Source of the DNA: a virus
Direction: 5' to 3' (one strand)
IMG/VR virus record: IMGVR_UViG_3300022752_000037
Span: 31,264-95,263 of that record
Length of the DNA stretch: 64,000 bases
The position numbers were made by a program, and so were the translations under genes. The notes below the pieces were generated by a model. The model searched no databases and had not been told where the DNA came from. It saw only the letters and a program-made list of their open reading frames with translations. Positions within the stretch are counted from its first letter, which is position 1, and the number at the start of each line of letters is the position of its first letter. Of the stretch, positions 30,836 through 63,360 are shown one piece after another.

Positions 30836-31915
30836 TTAACCTCTTATTTGTACATTCGCATGAGTAATGTACATAGCTTCGTCTGTTTGAGCTGTATCAG
30901 CACCGAAATAATGAGTAAACACTGCCGATGCAGCAGTATGATTTATCCAGCCCGTGTCTACAATAAAATAGCCATTTTGCTGGCTATTACCTCCCCATGG
31001 ACTGTAACTATATTGTTGATTAAGCACAAAAGTCACTCTTTCACATAGGTTAACACTAATGCTGCCCGTATTATTATATACTTTAGTGAAAGTAAGATAC
31101 CTCACTCCATCCACGTTGAGATAATTTGTTTCTCCATCGAGGCTATCTACACAGTGCCAATAGAATGTATATCTTATTTGACTGTGTGTAGGAAGGTTAG
31201 GCACAGTTAAAATATAGTTCGTAGTAGGTGTATACCCATGACCTGTTCCTTGACCAAATCCAGCAAAGTTAGTCATAGTATATGTAGTACTTGGAGTCCA
31301 ATAACTTAAAGTAGCAGTAGGATTAAGAACTTCATTTAACACAGTGCTGGTAAAGTCAAATACAGGTTCCGGATCTTGTATACCACCAGGTTTCCAACTT
31401 GCAGGTTGATCAGTATTTTCATATTCTTCTATGATAAGTTGTCCATAGCAGTTTTGAGCTGCTCGACCTGTACCGTTCCAATAGTAAGTTGTATACAATC
31501 TGCATTCATGATTGTCGTTAGCATAGGATCTAATTTGATATCCGATACGTCCTTGACTAGTCCCCCAACTTGGTACGTCATACTTCATAACATTGCCATC
31601 TTCTATGTGAACTCCACTTTGACTGTGTCGGTAATAAAGAATATTATTGACATAAAACTGCCAATGACTGATAACATGAGAGGCATTAGACCAAGCATGT
31701 GGAACACGCCAAATATAGCTAATTCTACTGTCTGTGCGTCTCGGTGTGAAATCTACATAACTACCTGGAGCCCATGTGTAGCTGTTATCGGGGTTCCATT
31801 CTCCAGCTATATAATTAAAAATATACTGTTGTATAACACGTTTAGTTAGTTCTATTGTTGGTAGAATTAGTGTGCCGTCTGGATGGTTGATTGATGTGGT
31901 TCGTAGTGTTCCCAT
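30836..31915 (-). CDS. Modular virion surface protein, family A paralog 3
   Basis: About 359 residues from the ATG at 31915, which overlaps the stop of the upstream paralog (TAATG); an earlier in-frame ATG at 31927 is the alternative. The family A domain covers roughly 15-160: W-N-P-D-N-S-Y-T-W-A-P-G-S-Y-V-D-F-T-P-R-R-T-D-S-R-I, H-V-I-S-H-W-Q-F-Y-V, V-P-S-W-G-T-S-Q-G-R-I-G-Y-Q and Y-Y-W-N-G-T-G-R. The C-terminal 150 residues form another beta-rich domain not seen in its paralogs (H-S-Q-I-R-Y-T-F-Y-W-H). Probably a fibre or receptor-binding component. Confidence 0.65.
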   Translation of the reverse strand: MGTLRTTSINHPDGTLILPTIELTKRVIQQYIFNYIAGEWNPDNSYTWAPGSYVDFTPRRTDSRISYIWRVPHAWSNASHVISHWQFYVNNILYYRHSQSGVHIEDGNVMKYDVPSWGTSQGRIGYQIRSYANDNHECRLYTTYYWNGTGRAAQNCYGQLIIEEYENTDQPASWKPGGIQDPEPVFDFTSTVLNEVLNPTATLSYWTPSTTYTMTNFAGFGQGTGHGYTPTTNYILTVPNLPTHSQIRYTFYWHCVDSLDGETNYLNVDGVRYLTFTKVYNNTGSISVNLCERVTFVLNQQYSYSPWGGNSQQNGYFIVDTGWINHTAASAVFTHYFGADTAQTDEAMYITHANVQIRG

Positions 31916-53380: not shown

Positions 53381-55103
53381 CAGTTACAGTTCCAGCAGGT
53401 GCCGATGGAGCCGCTTGCCCAGAAGGCGGCATAGCAGTTTCTCCAGGAGCCGCTCCTATTTCTGGAGGAGCATTTTCATCTGATAAATCAGTTAAGTCAC
53501 TTTCTATTCCAGCCTGACTAATCCCTGCTCCACGAAGTTCTCCACTCGGATCAGTAGAAACAATATTAGATTTACCGTTTTCTTCAGCCCATAGTTTCTG
53601 ATTTTCCGCCATTTCTTCATCACTAAGACCAAGAAATCTTTTTAGGGCAAATCTTTTACTAATGAACGGAACTTGTTGTAATGTATTAAATGTGTTAATT
53701 CTTTGTCCATCCATCTCGCTTTGTCTATATGCAGCAAAATTTAAAGGAGGATTTAACTGAAGCTCGAATAAACTAGTATCTATGTTAACTCCTTTATCAT
53801 AAAGAAACAATTTAAATTCTTGATCGAATACGTCTTCTAATAAACTTTGTAATCTTTCACAGTATTTGTTAAATCTTAATTCTTGAATATAAGCAGTTCC
53901 TACACGACCATCATTGTAACTGGCTTGACTATCATCGGCTCCTGTAGGCAAATAACTACTAGGAATTCTCAATCCTCTAAATAATTTATTAGTGAAATAT
54001 TTTAAATCATCTATCTCACCGAGATTGGTACCTCCTGGTAAAGTATCAACTTTTGACCCTCTACCTTCTGCTGTTTGTGGGAAAAAGTAATCTTCATTAA
54101 TACTTAATGGATTATAAGCACTATCAATAACATTTTGTCCTCCTCCTGTAGAACTAGGAATTCGTCTTTGATGTATTTCGTTTTTTACACGTTCGACAAA
54201 GCTCATAGCCAAATGACTTGGCATATTACCTACATCAATATAGAAAACACGGCGTTCAGGAGCACGTTGTACTCTATAAATTATAATAGCATCTTCTAAT
54301 AATTCTTTTTGTTTATAGACTTTAAATACCTGTTCAAGTAGACTGTTTCCAAAAGGATAATTATTATCTAATCCTTCACTTAGACTAAGATGTATAACGT
54401 GCTTAGATTCAATAGCTACTTCATTTTGATTGTTTTGAAAACGTGTTCCTGGACTAATTGGATAGGCACTAGCTTGTCCTCTAGCCGCAGCTCCTCCTGC
54501 TACATATGCTGTTCCTCGATTATTTGTATTGGTTGTATTTGGATTAATAGCAGTTACAACTAAGTCCATAAAATTTGGATTTAAATCTCTAATAACATAT
54601 TGTTCTGGCTTTTTGCCTTCACTCTCGTTAACAATAATTTTTGTAATTTTACCTGGGTCAACATGATACCATTGTTTACTTTCAGGATCTCTAATAAAAA
54701 ATCCATCGCCATATTTAAATATATTTCTTACGATTCTAAACACCCGTGTGTCAAATTTGTTCATTTTGCACCATTGTTGTAGATATTCACGTAATATTGT
54801 TATTTCGCTAGTAGTTGCCTGTGATTTAAAATGAAGTTGGAATGGTGTTTTATTAGTTTCATTTGGTTGGGTACAGAATTCAGCAAGTATGTCAAGGGCA
54901 GCATTAACTTCACTATCCATATCCATAGTGTCATATTGAAGATATCTATCAATACGATTAGGAGCACCTGTATAAACATCTGGAAGATAGCTACTATAAT
55001 TTGCCCTTGCAGGCCCAGGTCTACTGGCATTCATTCCTAATGGACTAAATGTTCCAGGTTGATTATCTACTAGTACAGGTGTGAAATATTTTTTCCAACT
55101 CAT
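53376..55103 (-). CDS. gp20: Portal vertex protein gp20
   Basis: 575 residues; forms the dodecamer through which DNA enters and leaves the head. The N-terminal half has the marine gp20 patterns R-Y-L-Q-Y-D-T-M-D-M-D-S-E-V-N-A-A-L-D-I-L-A-E-F, I-F-K-Y-G-D-G-F-F, then W-Y-H-V-D-P. The middle has A-I-I-I-Y-R-V-Q-R-A-P-E-R-R-V-F-Y-I-D-V-G-N-M-P, the most conserved gp20 stretch, then L-R-I-P-S-S-Y-L-P. The C-terminal 70 residues are acidic and proline-rich. T4 gp20 has 524 residues. The start codon overlaps the stop of the large upstream gene by one base. Confidence 0.96.
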   Translation of the reverse strand: MSWKKYFTPVLVDNQPGTFSPLGMNASRPGPARANYSSYLPDVYTGAPNRIDRYLQYDTMDMDSEVNAALDILAEFCTQPNETNKTPFQLHFKSQATTSEITILREYLQQWCKMNKFDTRVFRIVRNIFKYGDGFFIRDPESKQWYHVDPGKITKIIVNESEGKKPEQYVIRDLNPNFMDLVVTAINPNTTNTNNRGTAYVAGGAAARGQASAYPISPGTRFQNNQNEVAIESKHVIHLSLSEGLDNNYPFGNSLLEQVFKVYKQKELLEDAIIIYRVQRAPERRVFYIDVGNMPSHLAMSFVERVKNEIHQRRIPSSTGGGQNVIDSAYNPLSINEDYFFPQTAEGRGSKVDTLPGGTNLGEIDDLKYFTNKLFRGLRIPSSYLPTGADDSQASYNDGRVGTAYIQELRFNKYCERLQSLLEDVFDQEFKLFLYDKGVNIDTSLFELQLNPPLNFAAYRQSEMDGQRINTFNTLQQVPFISKRFALKRFLGLSDEEMAENQKLWAEENGKSNIVSTDPSGELRGAGISQAGIESDLTDLSDENAPPEIGAAPGETAMPPSGQAAPSAPAGTVTV

Positions 55104-58100
55104 TAATAAACGCCTACAAAATTATTTTTATTATTTGCTTTAACTGCTCTGAGCTGATCACCTAGTAACTTTTGATTTTGATCAATAAGATTCTGCATAT
55201 TCTTATTTAATGAACTTAGTTGTTTTACAACATCATTAAGAGTTGCATCTTTTGTTACAGTTGCAGTGGATTTAGATTCAGATGTTTTAGATTCATTATT
55301 AGATGTTTCACTATCAGACTTTTTTTCTGCCTGTCTTTTTAATCTAGCAGTTTCAGCACTGCTTTCGTTTTCTTCTTTTTTAGATATACTCTGAGTTTGA
55401 GATTTTAAATCTGCACCGTATTTTTTCATTCCTGGTAGATGTATAGTATTAAGATCTAATTCACCTTTCTCATTAAAAAAGGGATTAGTCGTCTTTAATT
55501 GAGAATCTAAGCTCTTTTTAGATTCTTCAGGAATATCAGTGTAATATCTTTCTCCAGTTTCTGGATTTATCTTGATACCTTGTGCTACACTACCATCTTC
55601 TGCTAATACATCCATGCCAGATGTATTTTTTTGAATATTTTTTTGTAGTTCTATTGCTTTGTCAAGACCTGCAAATTCATCAAACGGTAGTGCATTTTTT
55701 ATAGCTGATGAAATATAATCTGTATCTTCTTCTTCTTTTGGTAGATGTTTATCGATCATTGAACCTAAATTAGCTTGTATATCACCGACTACTTCATCGA
55801 GTCCACCACGCATATCATCAGCAAATAATAACATCTTTTCTTGTTCATTTATTGCTTTATCTACGCCTGCAAATTCATCAAACGGTAGTGCATTTTTTAT
55901 AGCTGATGAAATATAATCTGTATCTTCTTCTTTTGGTAGATGTTTATCGATCATTGAACCTAAATTAGCTTGTATATCACCGACTACTTCATCGAGTCCA
56001 CCACGCATATCATCAGCAAATAATAACATCTTTTCTTGTTCATTTATTGCTTTATCTACGCCTGCAAATTCATCAAACGGTAGTGCATTTTTTATAGCTG
56101 ATGAAATATAATCTGTATCTTCCTCTTCTGGTTGCTGATATTCATCAAGCATCGATCCTAAGTTGGCTTGAATGTCGTGTGCAACTTCATCGAGTCCACC
56201 ACGCATATCATCAGCAAATAATAACATCTTTTCTTGTTCATTTATTGCTTTATCTACGCCTGCAAATTCATCAAACGGTAGTGCATTTTTTATAGATGAT
56301 GAAATATAATCTGTATCACCGATCAGATCATCTATTTCTATCGGTTTAAATTCTATACCAGACATTACACTTTCGATATCTTCAGCTATGTTATTAGCTT
56401 CAAGCATCATGGCATCTTTAGCAGCAATTACACTATCTGTAGGAATAAGATCAGCCATTTCGCTCGCTATCTCATCTGCTGCCATAGTCATATCTGATAA
56501 TGTTGTAGTAGCAGCCGGAATAGATTTTGTAATGTTATTAATGTCTTCAGCAATTTCATTTGCTTCTAACATAAAATTATCTCTTGCCTGAACTAATACA
56601 TCTTCTACTTGTATTGGTGGAATATCAACAGCAGACATTTCTCCGGCGATGTCTTCAGCAATTTCGTTCGCTTCTAGCATCATAGCATCTTTAGCAGCAA
56701 TTACACTATCTGTAGGAATAAGATCTGTTATTTCACTAGCAATTTCATTTGCTTCAAGCATCATAGCATCTTTAGCTTGTGTTACGCTGTCTAATTGAGA
56801 AATATTAGTTTTTTCTGTAACGCCGACAATCTGTCCTTGAATGCCTTCTGATAACTCTAGCTGATCATTCAGAGCTTTTTTAGTAGCTTCAATTTCAGCT
56901 TTGTTATATTCTTCATTGGTCTTTAAAACATCTATCCTATGTTTTAAACTTTCTAATTGTAGTTGTTCTTCATAGGTTAGTTGTTGTTCTTGTGCCTTAG
57001 CTTCTAATTGCTCAATTTCACCTAATGTTAATTTTTCTCGCTCTAATCTTTTTTGTTCTTTCTCGTTCAAATAAACAAGATGCTCTTCATTAGATTCTAC
57101 AGAAGAATTCATTGCTTCTTTGTAAGACTGGCTAAATCTTCTAGCAGATCCAGACATTTCTTCGCTAGATTTTTGTATTTCTATCACAGGCAATGATTCA
57201 ATTAGGTCTTTGTTTATTTCTTCAAGCTTTAAATTAAAACCTGAAAGATCAACTTTGCCCATTGTAGACTGAATATCATTGTAAGTTTTTTCAAAACTAC
57301 TACCGAACTCGTCCATCATACTGCCAAATGGCAGTTTCATTTCTTCTCCGAATTCACTAGTTAATGCTTTGAAATCTGGTTTAGGAACGTCAGGAGCGTT
57401 GTCTACTGCTCTAACACTTGCTTGAGTAGGTGTAAGTTTAGCTGCTTCTGCTCTTTGTAATTCACTAATAACAGTTCCTGTAACTGATTTGATATCCAGA
57501 GGCTCTTGAGTTGTTTTTTCTATCTTATTATCTATTGCTCTAACACTTGCTTGAGTAGGTGTAAGTTTAGCTGCTTCTGCTCTTTGTAATTCACTAATAA
57601 CAGTTCCTGTAACTGATTTGATATCCAGAGGCTCTTGAGTTGTTTTTTCTATCTTATTATCTATTGCTCTAACACTTGCTTGAGTAGGTGTAGGTTTAGC
57701 TGCTTCAACTGGTTTAGCTGCTTCTTCTTTTTTCGCAACAGGAGAAGGAGGAGGCGGTGGAACATTAGATTTACCAAAGTCTTTAGGCCAATTAATAACT
57801 TCTACTTTGCTAGGTGTAGTGGGCTGCTTTAATTCTATAGTTTGTGGAGTCTTAGGTATTGGTGCTGATACTGTTGTTGAAATATCTTTACTAATAGAAT
57901 TTAAATCAATTCCTTTAGTAGAATGCATAGAAGATATTTGTTTTTTTAAATTATCAATAGCCTTAGCTGCTCCTTGATTTGTCATGCCTTTAGCAATATT
58001 TGTCATTTCATCTGGACGCACTACACCTTCTAAACCATGCAGCTCAACAAGAGTGCCTTTACCCCAATCTTCAAATAGATTGCCAGTCATCTGCACACTA

Positions 58101-59752
58101 CCGCCCTGTCTTTTAGGTACCTGTTGTCCAGCATTTTTCAATGATTCAATAAAAGCATCTGCTCCTTTTTTCAGTGCATTCGGTAATGATGTTCCAGCAC
58201 TATCGACTATTTTTTTAAAATTCTCCGCTATTCCAAAATTAGCAGCATCGTTAAACATTTTGCCTGCATTTTTTATCACAGTACCAGCTTCGGTAGCTCC
58301 TGTTACTAGAGCTGCACTTCCAATATTAACTGCCTTTAAAAGATCTCCGCCTAATCCGCTAACATTTTCAACTGCTTTTCCTTCTCTTCCCTGCTGTGCT
58401 GCATCTGCTATTGCTGGTCGTATGCCTTTTCCTGTACCGCCGAAGTTTTCACTCAGTCCTCTCAGTGTAGTATTAAATTCTTTAAAGGCTGGATCTAATT
58501 TCCTTAATGGTTCCAACAATCCTTCATTTATAGCCACAGCAGCATCTTTGGCCCGTGCCTCAAATAATATCATTGCTGATCCAAGTTCGTTAACTTTTTT
58601 ACCTTGATCGTCTCTTCCCTGCATTTCTTTTAGAGCACGATCACGAGCCATTTTATCAAGTTCTTCGGCACTCTTGCCTCTACCTTCTTCACTTAGTTGA
58701 AGTTGTCTTAAGGCATCATGATAGCCACGTGTGGCTGTTATATTATCTGCTATAGCCTTACTGGCCACATTTCCTGTATGGTTCAGCGTGCCTAATTGTA
58801 ACTTACTGATATCTCTACTATCTTCGTAGGCTGCTGCTCGACCTTTTGCAGCGGCTTCTTGAGCTTCTTTCTCTTGTCCTCTTTGAGTGGCAAGAGCCAT
58901 ATCTCTTGTAGCAGCAGCTTGTTGACTGTTGATTGCTGCTTGAGTGGCAGCTTCTTTGGTAACTATCTGTCCTGTGGCAAATATTTCTTTGAACATTTGC
59001 CCTTGCCCACGTAATTGAGCTTCGTTATATTGTTGAGCAAAAAGAGCACGAGCTTTTGCCTCTTCTTCTGGGCCTTTGGTAGCTCCTATTAATCTAAACT
59101 TTGACTCAACAGCAGCATCTTGAGAAGCTTTTTTCATCGCCTCTGCTTGTTCTTCTCTAGACTTTCCTGTTAAACGAGCCATTAAGTCCATTTCAGTAGC
59201 TAATTTAGTAGCTGCCTCGATTGACTGTTTTTGACCTTCTTGATCCAGTTTTTGACTATATCTTGTATAAGCTAGTTGTAAAGCAAGAACTTCATTAAGG
59301 TCTTTACTTGTATAGCCTAACAATCTTAGATTATCAGTAGCAGGTTCGTCCATAAAACGTTTGCTGAGAGTAGCAAATGCCTCTGCTCCCCTAGTAACAC
59401 TACCACCTAAACCTATAAAATTTTCTCTATTTTCTTTGATTAAATTAGCGAACTCACCCAATGTTAGTCTTGTATTCGCTGCTGCTACACTAAGACCTAT
59501 AAGGTCACCTCTAAACCCTGCGCCAGCTTTGCTTAAATCCATGAATGCATCTTTAGCATTCAACAAACTTTGTGCAGTTTCTTTTCCATATCCTGGTAAC
59601 TTTTCAAAGGCTGCTATTAAAGGGTTAGTGCTTTGAGCTGTTTTGTTCAATGCAGCTTCTAGCCCGCCATCGCTATATTTTGGAGCTGCGGTTTGACTTT
59701 GAGCCCATTTCTTAAAGAATCTTTCAAATTCTAAACTTTTTTCGTCAGCCAT
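55103..59752 (-). CDS. Large tape-measure-like virion protein
   Basis: 1549 residues. The N-terminal 450 are alpha-helical with A-Q/K/E-rich coiled coil. At about 560-600 comes G-G-S-V-Q-M-T-G-N-L-F-E-D-W-G-K-G-T-L-V-E-L-H-G-L-E-G-V-V, a motif like the G-E-x-G-P-E-x-V/x-P element of tape-measure proteins. A 43-residue unit is repeated about 2.5 times (around 690-780) and a 65-66-residue unit four times (around 1140-1365), both near-identical at DNA level. It heads the head unit, just before gp20, and it is adjacent, divergently, to the gp26-like frameshift gene, the usual company of a tape-measure gene. Alternatives: a large head or tail structural protein of unknown place. Confidence 0.6.
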   Translation of the reverse strand: MADEKSLEFERFFKKWAQSQTAAPKYSDGGLEAALNKTAQSTNPLIAAFEKLPGYGKETAQSLLNAKDAFMDLSKAGAGFRGDLIGLSVAAANTRLTLGEFANLIKENRENFIGLGGSVTRGAEAFATLSKRFMDEPATDNLRLLGYTSKDLNEVLALQLAYTRYSQKLDQEGQKQSIEAATKLATEMDLMARLTGKSREEQAEAMKKASQDAAVESKFRLIGATKGPEEEAKARALFAQQYNEAQLRGQGQMFKEIFATGQIVTKEAATQAAINSQQAAATRDMALATQRGQEKEAQEAAAKGRAAAYEDSRDISKLQLGTLNHTGNVASKAIADNITATRGYHDALRQLQLSEEGRGKSAEELDKMARDRALKEMQGRDDQGKKVNELGSAMILFEARAKDAAVAINEGLLEPLRKLDPAFKEFNTTLRGLSENFGGTGKGIRPAIADAAQQGREGKAVENVSGLGGDLLKAVNIGSAALVTGATEAGTVIKNAGKMFNDAANFGIAENFKKIVDSAGTSLPNALKKGADAFIESLKNAGQQVPKRQGGSVQMTGNLFEDWGKGTLVELHGLEGVVRPDEMTNIAKGMTNQGAAKAIDNLKKQISSMHSTKGIDLNSISKDISTTVSAPIPKTPQTIELKQPTTPSKVEVINWPKDFGKSNVPPPPPSPVAKKEEAAKPVEAAKPTPTQASVRAIDNKIEKTTQEPLDIKSVTGTVISELQRAEAAKLTPTQASVRAIDNKIEKTTQEPLDIKSVTGTVISELQRAEAAKLTPTQASVRAVDNAPDVPKPDFKALTSEFGEEMKLPFGSMMDEFGSSFEKTYNDIQSTMGKVDLSGFNLKLEEINKDLIESLPVIEIQKSSEEMSGSARRFSQSYKEAMNSSVESNEEHLVYLNEKEQKRLEREKLTLGEIEQLEAKAQEQQLTYEEQLQLESLKHRIDVLKTNEEYNKAEIEATKKALNDQLELSEGIQGQIVGVTEKTNISQLDSVTQAKDAMMLEANEIASEITDLIPTDSVIAAKDAMMLEANEIAEDIAGEMSAVDIPPIQVEDVLVQARDNFMLEANEIAEDINNITKSIPAATTTLSDMTMAADEIASEMADLIPTDSVIAAKDAMMLEANNIAEDIESVMSGIEFKPIEIDDLIGDTDYISSSIKNALPFDEFAGVDKAINEQEKMLLFADDMRGGLDEVAHDIQANLGSMLDEYQQPEEEDTDYISSAIKNALPFDEFAGVDKAINEQEKMLLFADDMRGGLDEVVGDIQANLGSMIDKHLPKEEDTDYISSAIKNALPFDEFAGVDKAINEQEKMLLFADDMRGGLDEVVGDIQANLGSMIDKHLPKEEEDTDYISSAIKNALPFDEFAGLDKAIELQKNIQKNTSGMDVLAEDGSVAQGIKINPETGERYYTDIPEESKKSLDSQLKTTNPFFNEKGELDLNTIHLPGMKKYGADLKSQTQSISKKEENESSAETARLKRQAEKKSDSETSNNESKTSESKSTATVTKDATLNDVVKQLSSLNKNMQNLIDQNQKLLGDQLRAVKANNKNNFVGVY
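55660..56330. repeat. Tandem repeat of about 198 bases, four copies
   Basis: Near-identical units; the block CCTGCAAATTCATCAAACGG begins at 55668, 55866, 56061 and 56259 (198, 195 and 198 bases apart). It encodes 65-66-residue repeats within the tape-measure-like protein. In-frame spacing is kept. Confidence 0.9.
57408..57700. repeat. Tandem repeat of 129 bases
   Basis: A 129-base unit starting GCTCTAACACTTGCTTGAG at 57408, 57537 and 57666; the first two units look nearly identical and the third is partial. It encodes 43 residues in the tape-measure-like protein and suggests recent unequal recombination. Confidence 0.9.
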
Positions 59753-59812: not shown

Positions 59813-60637
59813 ATGAATCAAAGCAATCCACTTTTGAAATATTTCAGACAACCTAAGATTTATATTAATTTGCCAAGCCGTGGACTATATTATGAAAATA
59901 ACTCATTACAAGGCAATTACGAGCAGGTTCCTATTTTTGCTATGACAGGAATGGATGAAATTATTAGTAAAACTCCGGATGCATTGTTCAGTGGAGAAGC
60001 CACAGCCAAAGTAATTGAAAGTTGTTGTCCGGTGATTAAAAATGCCAAATTGATGCCCAGTATTGATTTAGATGCGTTATTAATTGCTATAAGAATTGCT
60101 ACATTTGGTCCTACTATGAACTTTACCCAAGTTTGTAAAAATTGTAGTACTGAAAATGATTATGAAGTAGAATTAAATGTTATCATAGACTATTTTCAAA
60201 ATTTAAAATTTGTTAATACTATTAATATTGACGAAAACCTTATTATTAAAGTCAGACCTCTATTGTATGAAGAAATGAATTATTTCGCGATAGAAAATTT
60301 TAAATTACAAAAAATGTTGTATCAAACAAGAGATCTTGAAGACGTAGAGAGACAAAAAACTATTGATAAAATTTATCTCGATCTTAGTGATTTACAATTG
60401 CAGCTTTTCTTAACTGTTATTAGTTCTATTCAAATTCCTGATATGGTTGTTTCAGAAAAAGACTTTATAGAAGAATATTTAAGAAACTGTGAACGTGACC
60501 AGTACAATTTAATTAAATCTAAATTAGAAGAAAACAAAGAAACATGGGCGATTCCTAAACAAAAAATTCAATGTTCTAATTGTAAAACTGAAGATGAAAT
60601 GCAAGTAGTATTGGATCAATCTAATTTTTTCGGTTAA
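59813..60637 (+). CDS. gp26-like baseplate hub / tail-assembly protein
   Basis: 274 residues. The pattern L-P-S-R-G-L-Y-Y near residue 20, D-E-I-I-S-K-T-P-D-A-L-F-S-G at 48-61, V-I-x-S-C-C-P, and two C-x-x-C pairs (C108/C111 and C254/C257), likely joined in one zinc site, fit the T4 baseplate family that includes gp26 of T4-like phages. In other phages proteins of the lambda gpG type next to the tape-measure gene act as tail assembly chaperones and are extended by a -1 frameshift; the same feature is seen at the 3' end here. Expressed from a late promoter facing away from the tape-measure-like gene. The symbol is left empty because the family match is by motif only. Confidence 0.7.
   Translation: MNQSNPLLKYFRQPKIYINLPSRGLYYENNSLQGNYEQVPIFAMTGMDEIISKTPDALFSGEATAKVIESCCPVIKNAKLMPSIDLDALLIAIRIATFGPTMNFTQVCKNCSTENDYEVELNVIIDYFQNLKFVNTINIDENLIIKVRPLLYEEMNYFAIENFKLQKMLYQTRDLEDVERQKTIDKIYLDLSDLQLQLFLTVISSIQIPDMVVSEKDFIEEYLRNCERDQYNLIKSKLEENKETWAIPKQKIQCSNCKTEDEMQVVLDQSNFFG
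60625..60631 (+). other. Probable programmed -1 frameshift site
   Basis: The heptamer T-TTT-TTC, in the correct phase (zero frame AAT TTT TTC GGT TAA), is a classic X-XXY-YYZ slippery sequence. It lies four codons before the end of the gp26-like gene. A GTTAAG / CTTAAC stem (633-638 with 649-654, ten-base loop) begins one base later and includes the stop codon. Confidence 0.7.
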
Positions 60638-60864
60638 GGCTTCTAAAACTTAACAATGAGGACATACTGAAATATACAGAAAGATTAGATTTAGAAGCCA
60701 AAGAAATAAAAGATGAAATTTTTAGAATAAGTTGGTATATGAGGGGTGGCGTAAGCAGCACTGATTTATTTTATCTATACAGTTATGAAGACAGAACAAT
60801 TCTAAATCAGATTATTAAAGATAATATTGATGCTACCAAGAAGTCAGGAATAAATCTTATCTAG
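60631..60864 (+). CDS. -1 frame extension of the gp26-like protein
   Basis: After a -1 shift at 60625-60631 the frame stays open for 77 codons to the TAG at 60862, giving a 350-residue fusion. The extension has no ATG in a useful place (the first methionine is about 40 codons in) and no ribosome-binding site, so it seems to be made only by shifting. Its sequence is conserved-looking: charged helix, then I-S-W-Y-M-R-G-G-V-S-S-T-D-L-F, Y-S-Y-E-D-R-T-I-L-N-Q-I-I. An aromatic/R-x-G segment followed by E-R/D-R and a helix is the style of C-terminal parts of tail assembly chaperones. It overlaps the opposing gene by eight bases. The role is inferred from this arrangement. Confidence 0.7.
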   Translation, partial: RLRLLKLNNEDILKYTERLDLEAKEIKDEIFRISWYMRGGVSSTDLFYLYSYEDRTILNQIIKDNIDATKKSGINLI

Positions 60865-62464
60865 CCAAATATGGTAGTTGCTGTCCAGGTTTTAAAAACT
60901 GTTGTAATGGATCCGGTTTACCTTTAGCTATTTCCGACCGCCTATAGGCAGTTAAATCCCAATTTGTACTAAGACTTGAATTACTAATTAGTTCTTTATT
61001 TGGACCTTTAGCAATTAAAACACTATTATCATCTGGTTTATCTGTTAATTCACCAGTTGTAGTGTTCAAATACCAAAGACCAGAACTATTTGCTACTGGC
61101 TCCGAAGTTGCTTGACGTATAGTTCCGTTAGGAGCCGCAGGAGCATTTGTAGGAGGATTAGCACTTTGTCCTGTAGATTGAGTTTTAGAAGCAGCTTGAG
61201 CACCGGTCTGCGAATAAGCATAATGTACAGGATCTTTTATAGGTTCGGGTCGACGCCATCCTTGAGAATTCATCCATTCTTCCTCTTCTCGACTTAACGG
61301 AGGACTTACATCAATGGCCCATAGATGAAACCATTCTTTATTCTTATGTTTGTCAGGATTAGTAGGTATATATATACCTTTTTCTCCTTTTTGCCATCTA
61401 TCATAAAGATCCTGTTGTTTATCTCTAGTACGTTCTGCACTAGTTATGTTTAACTCTTTTCCAAATTTCAATCTGTATTCTTTTTTAATTTTTTCAACAG
61501 CTCTTTTACTATTGGCCAAATCCTGATCACTACCAGGTACATCATACTTTTCTTGTTTTTGATATTGACCTAATACTCGACCTAATTCTGTATCTTCGAA
61601 ATCTCTTACATCCTTGAATATATTCAATCCTAGTTCTTCTAATGCGGCAGCAGACCCTGCTATAACTGCATTAACAAATTGTTCTAACCATACTCTACCT
61701 TTATCAGAATTTAAAAAAGTAATCCAAGCAGCTTTTAAAGTCGCATTAGCTAAAACTGCCGAGGCTAAATTTAATGTAATTTTTCCACCAGTAGCCATAC
61801 CTGCGGCCAGTGCTAGCATAGCAGTAGCACTTTTAGCAATTAGGTTACCACTGATAATTTGAGCTACAACCGCAGTAGCGAATATTGCTAACTCTTTATT
61901 TCTACGAGGATCATCTGGGGGTAATGCATCAACTTTTTCATTATAAACTTCCCAGGCATACCAAATTCCCCATATTCCGACAAGTTTATTAACAAGATAA
62001 CCTAGAGCAAGCCAACGCGGAGAATTCCAGAATTTAGTCATTTTACTTTGAAATGCACTTGTAGCAGGTCTATTCATTATGTCTTGATAACTTTGAGATA
62101 TTTGACTACTAGATGCAGCAGTTTTGAAATAGGCAGCAACTTTAGAATCACTTCTTTTCTTTATTTCATCTAATACAACTTTTAGGTCATTGCCTTGAAG
62201 ATTAGGATCTAAATCTTTATGTAAAAATTTATAAAAATCAGGATCTTTAACCCTGCCAGTTTCTCTTGATTTAATTACTGCTTCTGCATATTTGTCAGAC
62301 TTAGCTTGTATGAAAGGCTCCATTCTCTTCAGTAATTCTTTTTGAGATTTAGATGCTTGATAAGCTTGTTGTGCTTTATTTAAACCTTTCTTTGCTGCAT
62401 TAGTAGCTGATTTTGCAGTAGATTTAAATACACCTGCTTCAAATACAATTTCGTGAGCTTTCAT
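60857..62464 (-). CDS. Virion protein with hydrophobic segments and an M15 (D,D-carboxypeptidase-like) domain
   Basis: 535 residues. It begins M-K-A-H-E-I-V-F-E, the start style of virion proteins in this genome. Residues 1-130 are helical; about 150-275 contain several hydrophobic segments, possibly membrane-inserting. About 320-420 resemble VanY-type M15 peptidases: I-T-S-A-E-R-T-R-D-K-Q-Q-D-L-Y, W-A-I-D-V-S-P-P-L and D-P-V-H-Y-A-Y. D385 and H414 would be zinc ligands, but the canonical H-x-x-G-x-A-x-D is changed: tryptophan stands where the first histidine should be, with H380 two residues later. So it may be inactive or altered. Probably injected or baseplate-linked and acting at the cell envelope. 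The ATG is seven bases after a late box, without a ribosome-binding site. Confidence 0.65.
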   Translation of the reverse strand: MKAHEIVFEAGVFKSTAKSATNAAKKGLNKAQQAYQASKSQKELLKRMEPFIQAKSDKYAEAVIKSRETGRVKDPDFYKFLHKDLDPNLQGNDLKVVLDEIKKRSDSKVAAYFKTAASSSQISQSYQDIMNRPATSAFQSKMTKFWNSPRWLALGYLVNKLVGIWGIWYAWEVYNEKVDALPPDDPRRNKELAIFATAVVAQIISGNLIAKSATAMLALAAGMATGGKITLNLASAVLANATLKAAWITFLNSDKGRVWLEQFVNAVIAGSAAALEELGLNIFKDVRDFEDTELGRVLGQYQKQEKYDVPGSDQDLANSKRAVEKIKKEYRLKFGKELNITSAERTRDKQQDLYDRWQKGEKGIYIPTNPDKHKNKEWFHLWAIDVSPPLSREEEEWMNSQGWRRPEPIKDPVHYAYSQTGAQAASKTQSTGQSANPPTNAPAAPNGTIRQATSEPVANSSGLWYLNTTTGELTDKPDDNSVLIAKGPNKELISNSSLSTNWDLTAYRRSEIAKGKPDPLQQFLKPGQQLPYLAR

Positions 62465-62922: not shown

Positions 62923-63360
62923 TTAACCGTTTAATTGTTTGCCTTTGATATGTGAGCCATGAACACGAACAGATATCTGTCCGTTATAGTATTCGTCTGA
63001 TTCTAATACACGCCTTGAGAATTGCTCTCTTGCCTCAATGTAACTACATTCTGCCTTGGTTTTACAAAAATAAAGTATGTCTCTACGAAAGTTATCTAGG
63101 CCTAATTTTATAACATCTGCCTGTAATTCGTCATTTGATCCGTAATAGTCTCGCCAATCACTTTCTATTTTGCCTCTGATGCGTTTCTTTTTCTTGTTGC
63201 CATTCTTTAATTTCACTGTGCGAACTGTGGTCTTTGCGAATTTAGCCAGTTTTTTGCCTATGTATTTTCTATTATTGGTAAGATTGGTTATAATATAAAC
63301 AAAGCCTATATATTCTTCTTCAATTGATTCTACGATCGCATCGTTATAATACCAAGACAT
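62923..63360 (-). CDS. GIY-YIG family endonuclease
   Basis: 145 residues. The GIY-YIG core is seen as G-F-V-Y-I-I-T-N (19-26) and K-Y-I-G-K-K (32-37), with a basic loop and the catalytic glutamate probably in S-Y-I-E-A-R-E-Q (around 106-113). These enzymes make DNA breaks; in T4-like phages they are often free-standing (Seg-like) homing nucleases. It follows a small gene after gp46. The hairpin-rich region begins six bases after its stop, so the two may be linked. No ribosome-binding site of note. Confidence 0.75.
   Translation of the reverse strand: MSWYYNDAIVESIEEEYIGFVYIITNLTNNRKYIGKKLAKFAKTTVRTVKLKNGNKKKKRIRGKIESDWRDYYGSNDELQADVIKLGLDNFRRDILYFCKTKAECSYIEAREQFSRRVLESDEYYNGQISVRVHGSHIKGKQLNG

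Follow-up and report, generated by a model that had tools for sequence, protein, structure and literature searches.

A predicted −1 frameshifted gene for T4 gp26/gp51-type tail assembly chaperones in an uncultured viral genome fragment

The tail assembly chaperones of phage lambda come in two forms, the short protein G and the long form GT produced by −1 frameshifting at the slip site GGGAAAG, and their gene adjoins those of the tail tube and the tape measure. In T4-like phages, tail assembly chaperones were identified by Vladimirov et al. 2022 (Virology 566:9), as reported in PMC10885494 and PMC12846349. A similar arrangement with two genes and no frameshift had previously been put forward for Bacillus phage 0305phi8-36 (PMC2147016), and T4 gp51 has been reported missing from the particle (PMC3004832). 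Both T4 gp26 and T4 gp51 belong to PF12322 and phrog_150; the phrog_150 profile is covered nearly whole by gp51, whereas gp26 stops short of the profile end. An earlier note on the DNA studied here had held that a frameshifted gene of this kind is not a standard part of T4-like descriptions; the idea was already published, going by what the two citing articles say of Vladimirov et al. 2022. With the T4-like concept in print, specialists will thus find limited surprise in it. As far as can be judged from those articles, the additions made here are the size of the survey, its coverage of uncultured and jumbo clades with the present locus among them, a selection test, and the downstream stems.

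The analysed DNA, hereafter the window, is a 64,000-nt stretch of IMGVR_UViG_3300022752_000037 (positions 31,264–95,263 of that record), and all coordinates given below are window positions. A gp26-like open reading frame of 274 aa lies on the plus strand at 59813–60637 and encodes the short isoform (TAC-N, lambda G-like). This protein matches Pfam T4_baseplate (PF12322) with an E-value of 9.1e-15 and 55.4 bits, the curated cut-off being 24.5, and phrog_150 with an E-value of 1.6e-16. The frame closes with AAT TTT TTC GGT TAA (60623–60637), which gives the protein C-terminus NFFG and places the stop codon at 60635–60637. As the earlier note had recognised, this end holds the slippery heptamer T TTT TTC (60625–60631) in the phase X XXY YYZ, unlike the GGGAAAG of lambda. 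From there the −1 frame remains open on the same strand over 60625–60861, up to a TAG stop at 60862–60864. These 79 codons, the two slippery codons included, would supply a gp51-type C-terminal domain, and the spliced fusion (the long isoform, TAC-NC, lambda GT-like) has exactly the 350 aa that the note had given. The note was also right that the extension lacks a usable start codon, as its earliest ATG, GTG or TTG is codon 38. Moreover, a TAA in the −1 frame (60622–60624) sits immediately 5' of the heptamer. Owing to this stop, the zero-frame stop at 60635 and the lack of a start until codon 38, the extension can be reached only by a frame switch between 60625 and 60635, within about 10 nt. 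Judged from its sequence, this member of the T4 gp26/gp51 family very probably encodes tail assembly chaperones through −1 programmed ribosomal frameshifting, the class of mechanism that the note had rightly named.

Slip site and extension are both kept in the relatives of this gene. A first search yielded 15 relatives in viral contigs, and the same heptamer, phase and extension were present in all 14 whose junction was readable. A wider survey, with cyanophage-like, RaK2/121Q-like and window-like queries and the best 80 loci taken for each, covered 240 loci in three deep clades. The slip-site signal is real: in all 240 viral contigs TTTTTTC is in phase and the −1 frame continues open past it. 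Seven extensions appear short only because the contig ends there, and the zero-frame stop is found 7–40 nt from the heptamer among relatives. TTTTTTC is likewise present in 121Q, RaK2, GAP32, XbC2, Phosso, Atu_ph07, S-PM2, P-SSM2 and Syn9, and TTTTTTT in phiM12 and HTVC008M, so that T TTT TTY is kept in all 11 named phages. In the 112 representatives with less than 80% identity, the first Phe codon of the pair is TTT and the second TTC in every case, and the codon before the pair invariably has T in its third position, eight different codons being used there. TTT accounts for 71% of the Phe codons over the whole gene, compared with 112/112 at the first slip codon, and the conservation of the heptamer is therefore not due to chance. 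Additionally, across 26 sequences, the part of the extension past the overlap has a median pN/pS of 0.39 in the −1 frame versus 0.94 and 1.47 in the remaining frames, and purifying selection on the extension is confined to the −1 frame. A sequencing indel or gene decay, by which one open reading frame would have been split in two, draws on nothing beyond the split itself; the split and its site are common to 240 contigs and 11 named phages, and the extension is under purifying selection. This explanation was already refuted by the 240-contig survey, in which no relative has both parts in one frame at this locus. Its probability is negligible and a sequencing indel is excluded, where the earlier note had considered one less likely.

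The homopolymeric run at the junction might instead mean that RNA polymerase slips on the T run and makes the mixture, and the runs are slightly longer in HTVC008M and phiM12. However, almost every member has a run of just six or seven T, neither the trailing C nor the codon phase varies, and a stem follows at a fixed spacing of 5–6 nt, the usual geometry of ribosomal frameshift signals. Slippage of the polymerase is thus regarded as extremely improbable. In the window, the predicted stimulatory stem has 10 perfect base pairs and starts 6 nt past the heptamer, its 5' arm GGCTTCTAAA at 60638–60647 pairing with the 3' arm TTTAGAAGCC at 60690–60699, both on the plus strand; a stem had been noted before at this place, with six pairs, and it is its length that had to be corrected. 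The minimum free energy is −13.6 kcal/mol (z −3.11), one of 200 shuffles was equally good, and a separate shuffle gave p = 0.003. The mean stem score has its maximum at offsets 12–13 from the heptamer start in each of the three clades, and the stems at this common offset differ among clades in sequence and loop length, as exemplified by the arms GGCTTTCGAC/GTCGAAAGCC, GGCTCTTTGT/ACAAAGAGCC and AGTATGGCTCA/TGAGTCATACT from relatives. The stem of the cyanophage clade has a covariation score of 0.183 versus 0.124 (sd 0.010) in shuffles, and its pairing is destroyed once the partner is slid. Stems are individually significant against shuffles (0.05) in 52 of 113 sequences. A long simple stem is absent from many of the deeper window-like relatives, so the stimulator is not universal. 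A known Rfam element was also considered and rejected, the only match in a search of the locus being a sub-threshold chance match on the opposite strand.

In a tree of the core domain, the window gene groups with jumbo phages of the RaK2/121Q/Atu_ph07 type and not with the marine cyanophages. 121Q, RaK2, GAP32, XbC2, Phosso and Atu_ph07 are its closest named relatives, sharing with the window the slip site, the extension and a single core copy, although their proteins are only about 28–31% identical to that of the window; annotators have either treated their extension as a hypothetical ORF of its own or missed it. Kyanoviridae (S-PM2, P-SSM2, Syn9) and the Sinorhizobium phage phiM12 also have T TTT TTY and a −1 extension, and wherever the gene order can be tested it runs from the tube gene through gp26 and gp51 to the tape measure gene. 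Unlike in the window, their extension is about 60 aa long and usually has an ATG at codon +5, within an 11-bp stem with a shorter loop. The cyanophage genes annotated as gp51 are these −1 extensions, with an internal codon taken as the start, and the GenBank calls of Kyanoviridae gp51 begin at the codon +5 ATG, which is also part of the stem, or later.

Such annotations amount to a further explanation, namely that the extension is a separate gene (gp51) with its own start or with termination-reinitiation. The ATG at codon +5 is present in 35 of 38 representatives of the cyanophage clade, and gp51 of both P-SSM2 and S-PM2 is annotated from it. On the other hand, 19 of 35 window-like and 25 of 39 RaK2-like representatives have no ATG, GTG or TTG within −10 to +15 codons, and the window extension, as described above, has none before codon 38. 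A separate start in relatives, which the earlier note had named as evidence against its proposal, is thus found in the cyanophage clade and is absent from the window and most of the two jumbo-like clades. Furthermore, independent initiation leaves the invariant heptamer unexplained, and core and extension form a single chain in gp51 of Straboviridae. A separate gene is accordingly very improbable. It is likely that gp26 and gp51 are one frameshifted gene in all non-Straboviridae T4-like phages (cyano-, rhizobial and jumbo phages), in which TTTTTTC hardly varies and each lineage has its own stem at a fixed spacing.

T4 gp26 and gp51 resemble the products of the window in core family and in their matching short and long forms, but they are encoded by two paralogous genes without a slip site, whereas one gene accounts for both forms in the window. 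The core is present in one copy in genomes with the frameshift arrangement and as a pair of paralogs in Straboviridae, gp26 being the short one and gp51 the long one; one copy was found in the window's own record, which is a 95-kb fragment only. None of the 39 Straboviridae gp26 genes has the TTTTTTC heptamer or the extension. Phe-Phe is usually kept in these genes but coded TTC TTT or similar, and they are a natural negative control. The T4-type gp51 profile aligns from end to end, through the extension, with the spliced cyanophage fusion (E 2.6e-15) and runs through the junction of the spliced jumbo-group fusion (E 6e-7), while the match of the gp26 profile to the cyanophage fusion ends at the Phe-Phe junction (E 2e-13). 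The gp26 and gp51 profiles match each other at 5e-20. Comparison of extension-only profiles with each other is weak (15% probability, E 0.0017), the gp51 match to the extension being strong only once spliced full-length profiles are used. By profile comparison, the predicted extension is the counterpart of the C-terminal domain of T4 gp51, with the short form corresponding to gp26 and the long form to gp51. In the core-domain tree, which has no outgroup to place its root, Straboviridae gp26 and gp51 fall into one clade (97/90) apart from the cyanophage and jumbo clades, which suggests that the pair arose by duplication within the Straboviridae lineage. T4 gp28 was considered as a third paralog; it has its own Pfam family and weak cross-matches, and is not claimed. 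The two PF12322 copies of RB43 and other Pseudotevenvirus-type phages lie in tandem on one strand, and T4 gp26 and gp51 are divergent.

In phiM12 and HTVC008M the gene has the tail tube gene on one side and the tape measure gene on the other, which is the classical G/GT place. This position, together with short and long forms that match lambda G and GT, makes a chaperone role the best reading. When the two forms were compared with lambda G and GT by hhalign, no sequence similarity was detected, every probability being below 4%; the gene would thus work like G/GT and is not a demonstrable sequence homolog of it. The proposal of the earlier note that gp26 corresponds to the G/GT pair holds with one refinement, as the long form is matched by gp51, a separate paralog in Straboviridae. 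AlphaFold2 predicts a confident fold for the short form (pLDDT 90.2) and for T4-type gp51 (pLDDT 91.1), whose extra C-terminal part consists of three helices; some rows of one alignment lacked the last few C-terminal residues, which should leave the predicted fold unaffected. Searches of the PDB gave no relative by sequence, and no entry, solved chaperones included, matched the fold of the short form, in line with proteins that virion models do not include.

A recognised tail tube gene is not adjacent to the gp26-like gene in the window or in RaK2-like phages. A gene of 1549 aa (55103–59752, minus strand) is divergent from it, as had been noted before; its tape-measure identity is unconfirmed, since it resembles a tape measure by size only and has no Pfam, PHROG or tape-measure match. 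It contains three 290-nt repeat copies with a spacing of about 195 nt and two 129-nt copies at 98%. On the other side, the gene for a 535-aa protein (60857–62464, minus strand) converges on the gp26/gp51 gene, its 3' end overlapping the last bases of the extension, and this protein has a weak endolysin-like stretch (phrog_2649, E 0.007). A putative GIY-YIG homing endonuclease of the SegE type follows at 62923–63360 on the minus strand (Pfam E 2.3e-32).

We infer that slippage takes place, how often it does so, and that the products act as chaperones. Under programmed frameshifting, the majority of ribosomes would terminate at 60635–60637 and release the 274-aa short form. A minority would slip by one base on T TTT TTC, aided by the stem-loop 6 nt downstream, and produce the 350-aa form with its gp51-type helical C-terminal domain. 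By likeness to lambda G/GT, the short and long forms would act as chaperones, coating the tape measure protein, recruiting tail tube subunits and then leaving the particle. In many phage genomes a single chaperone is annotated in two pieces, as gp26 plus a distinct gp51 or hypothetical ORF, or its second part is overlooked, and annotators could join these parts. Additionally, one slip heptamer combined with many different stems constitutes a large natural data set on frameshift efficiency. The frameshift reading also links the long-obscure T4 genetics of gp26 and gp51 to the mechanism of tail length in lambda.
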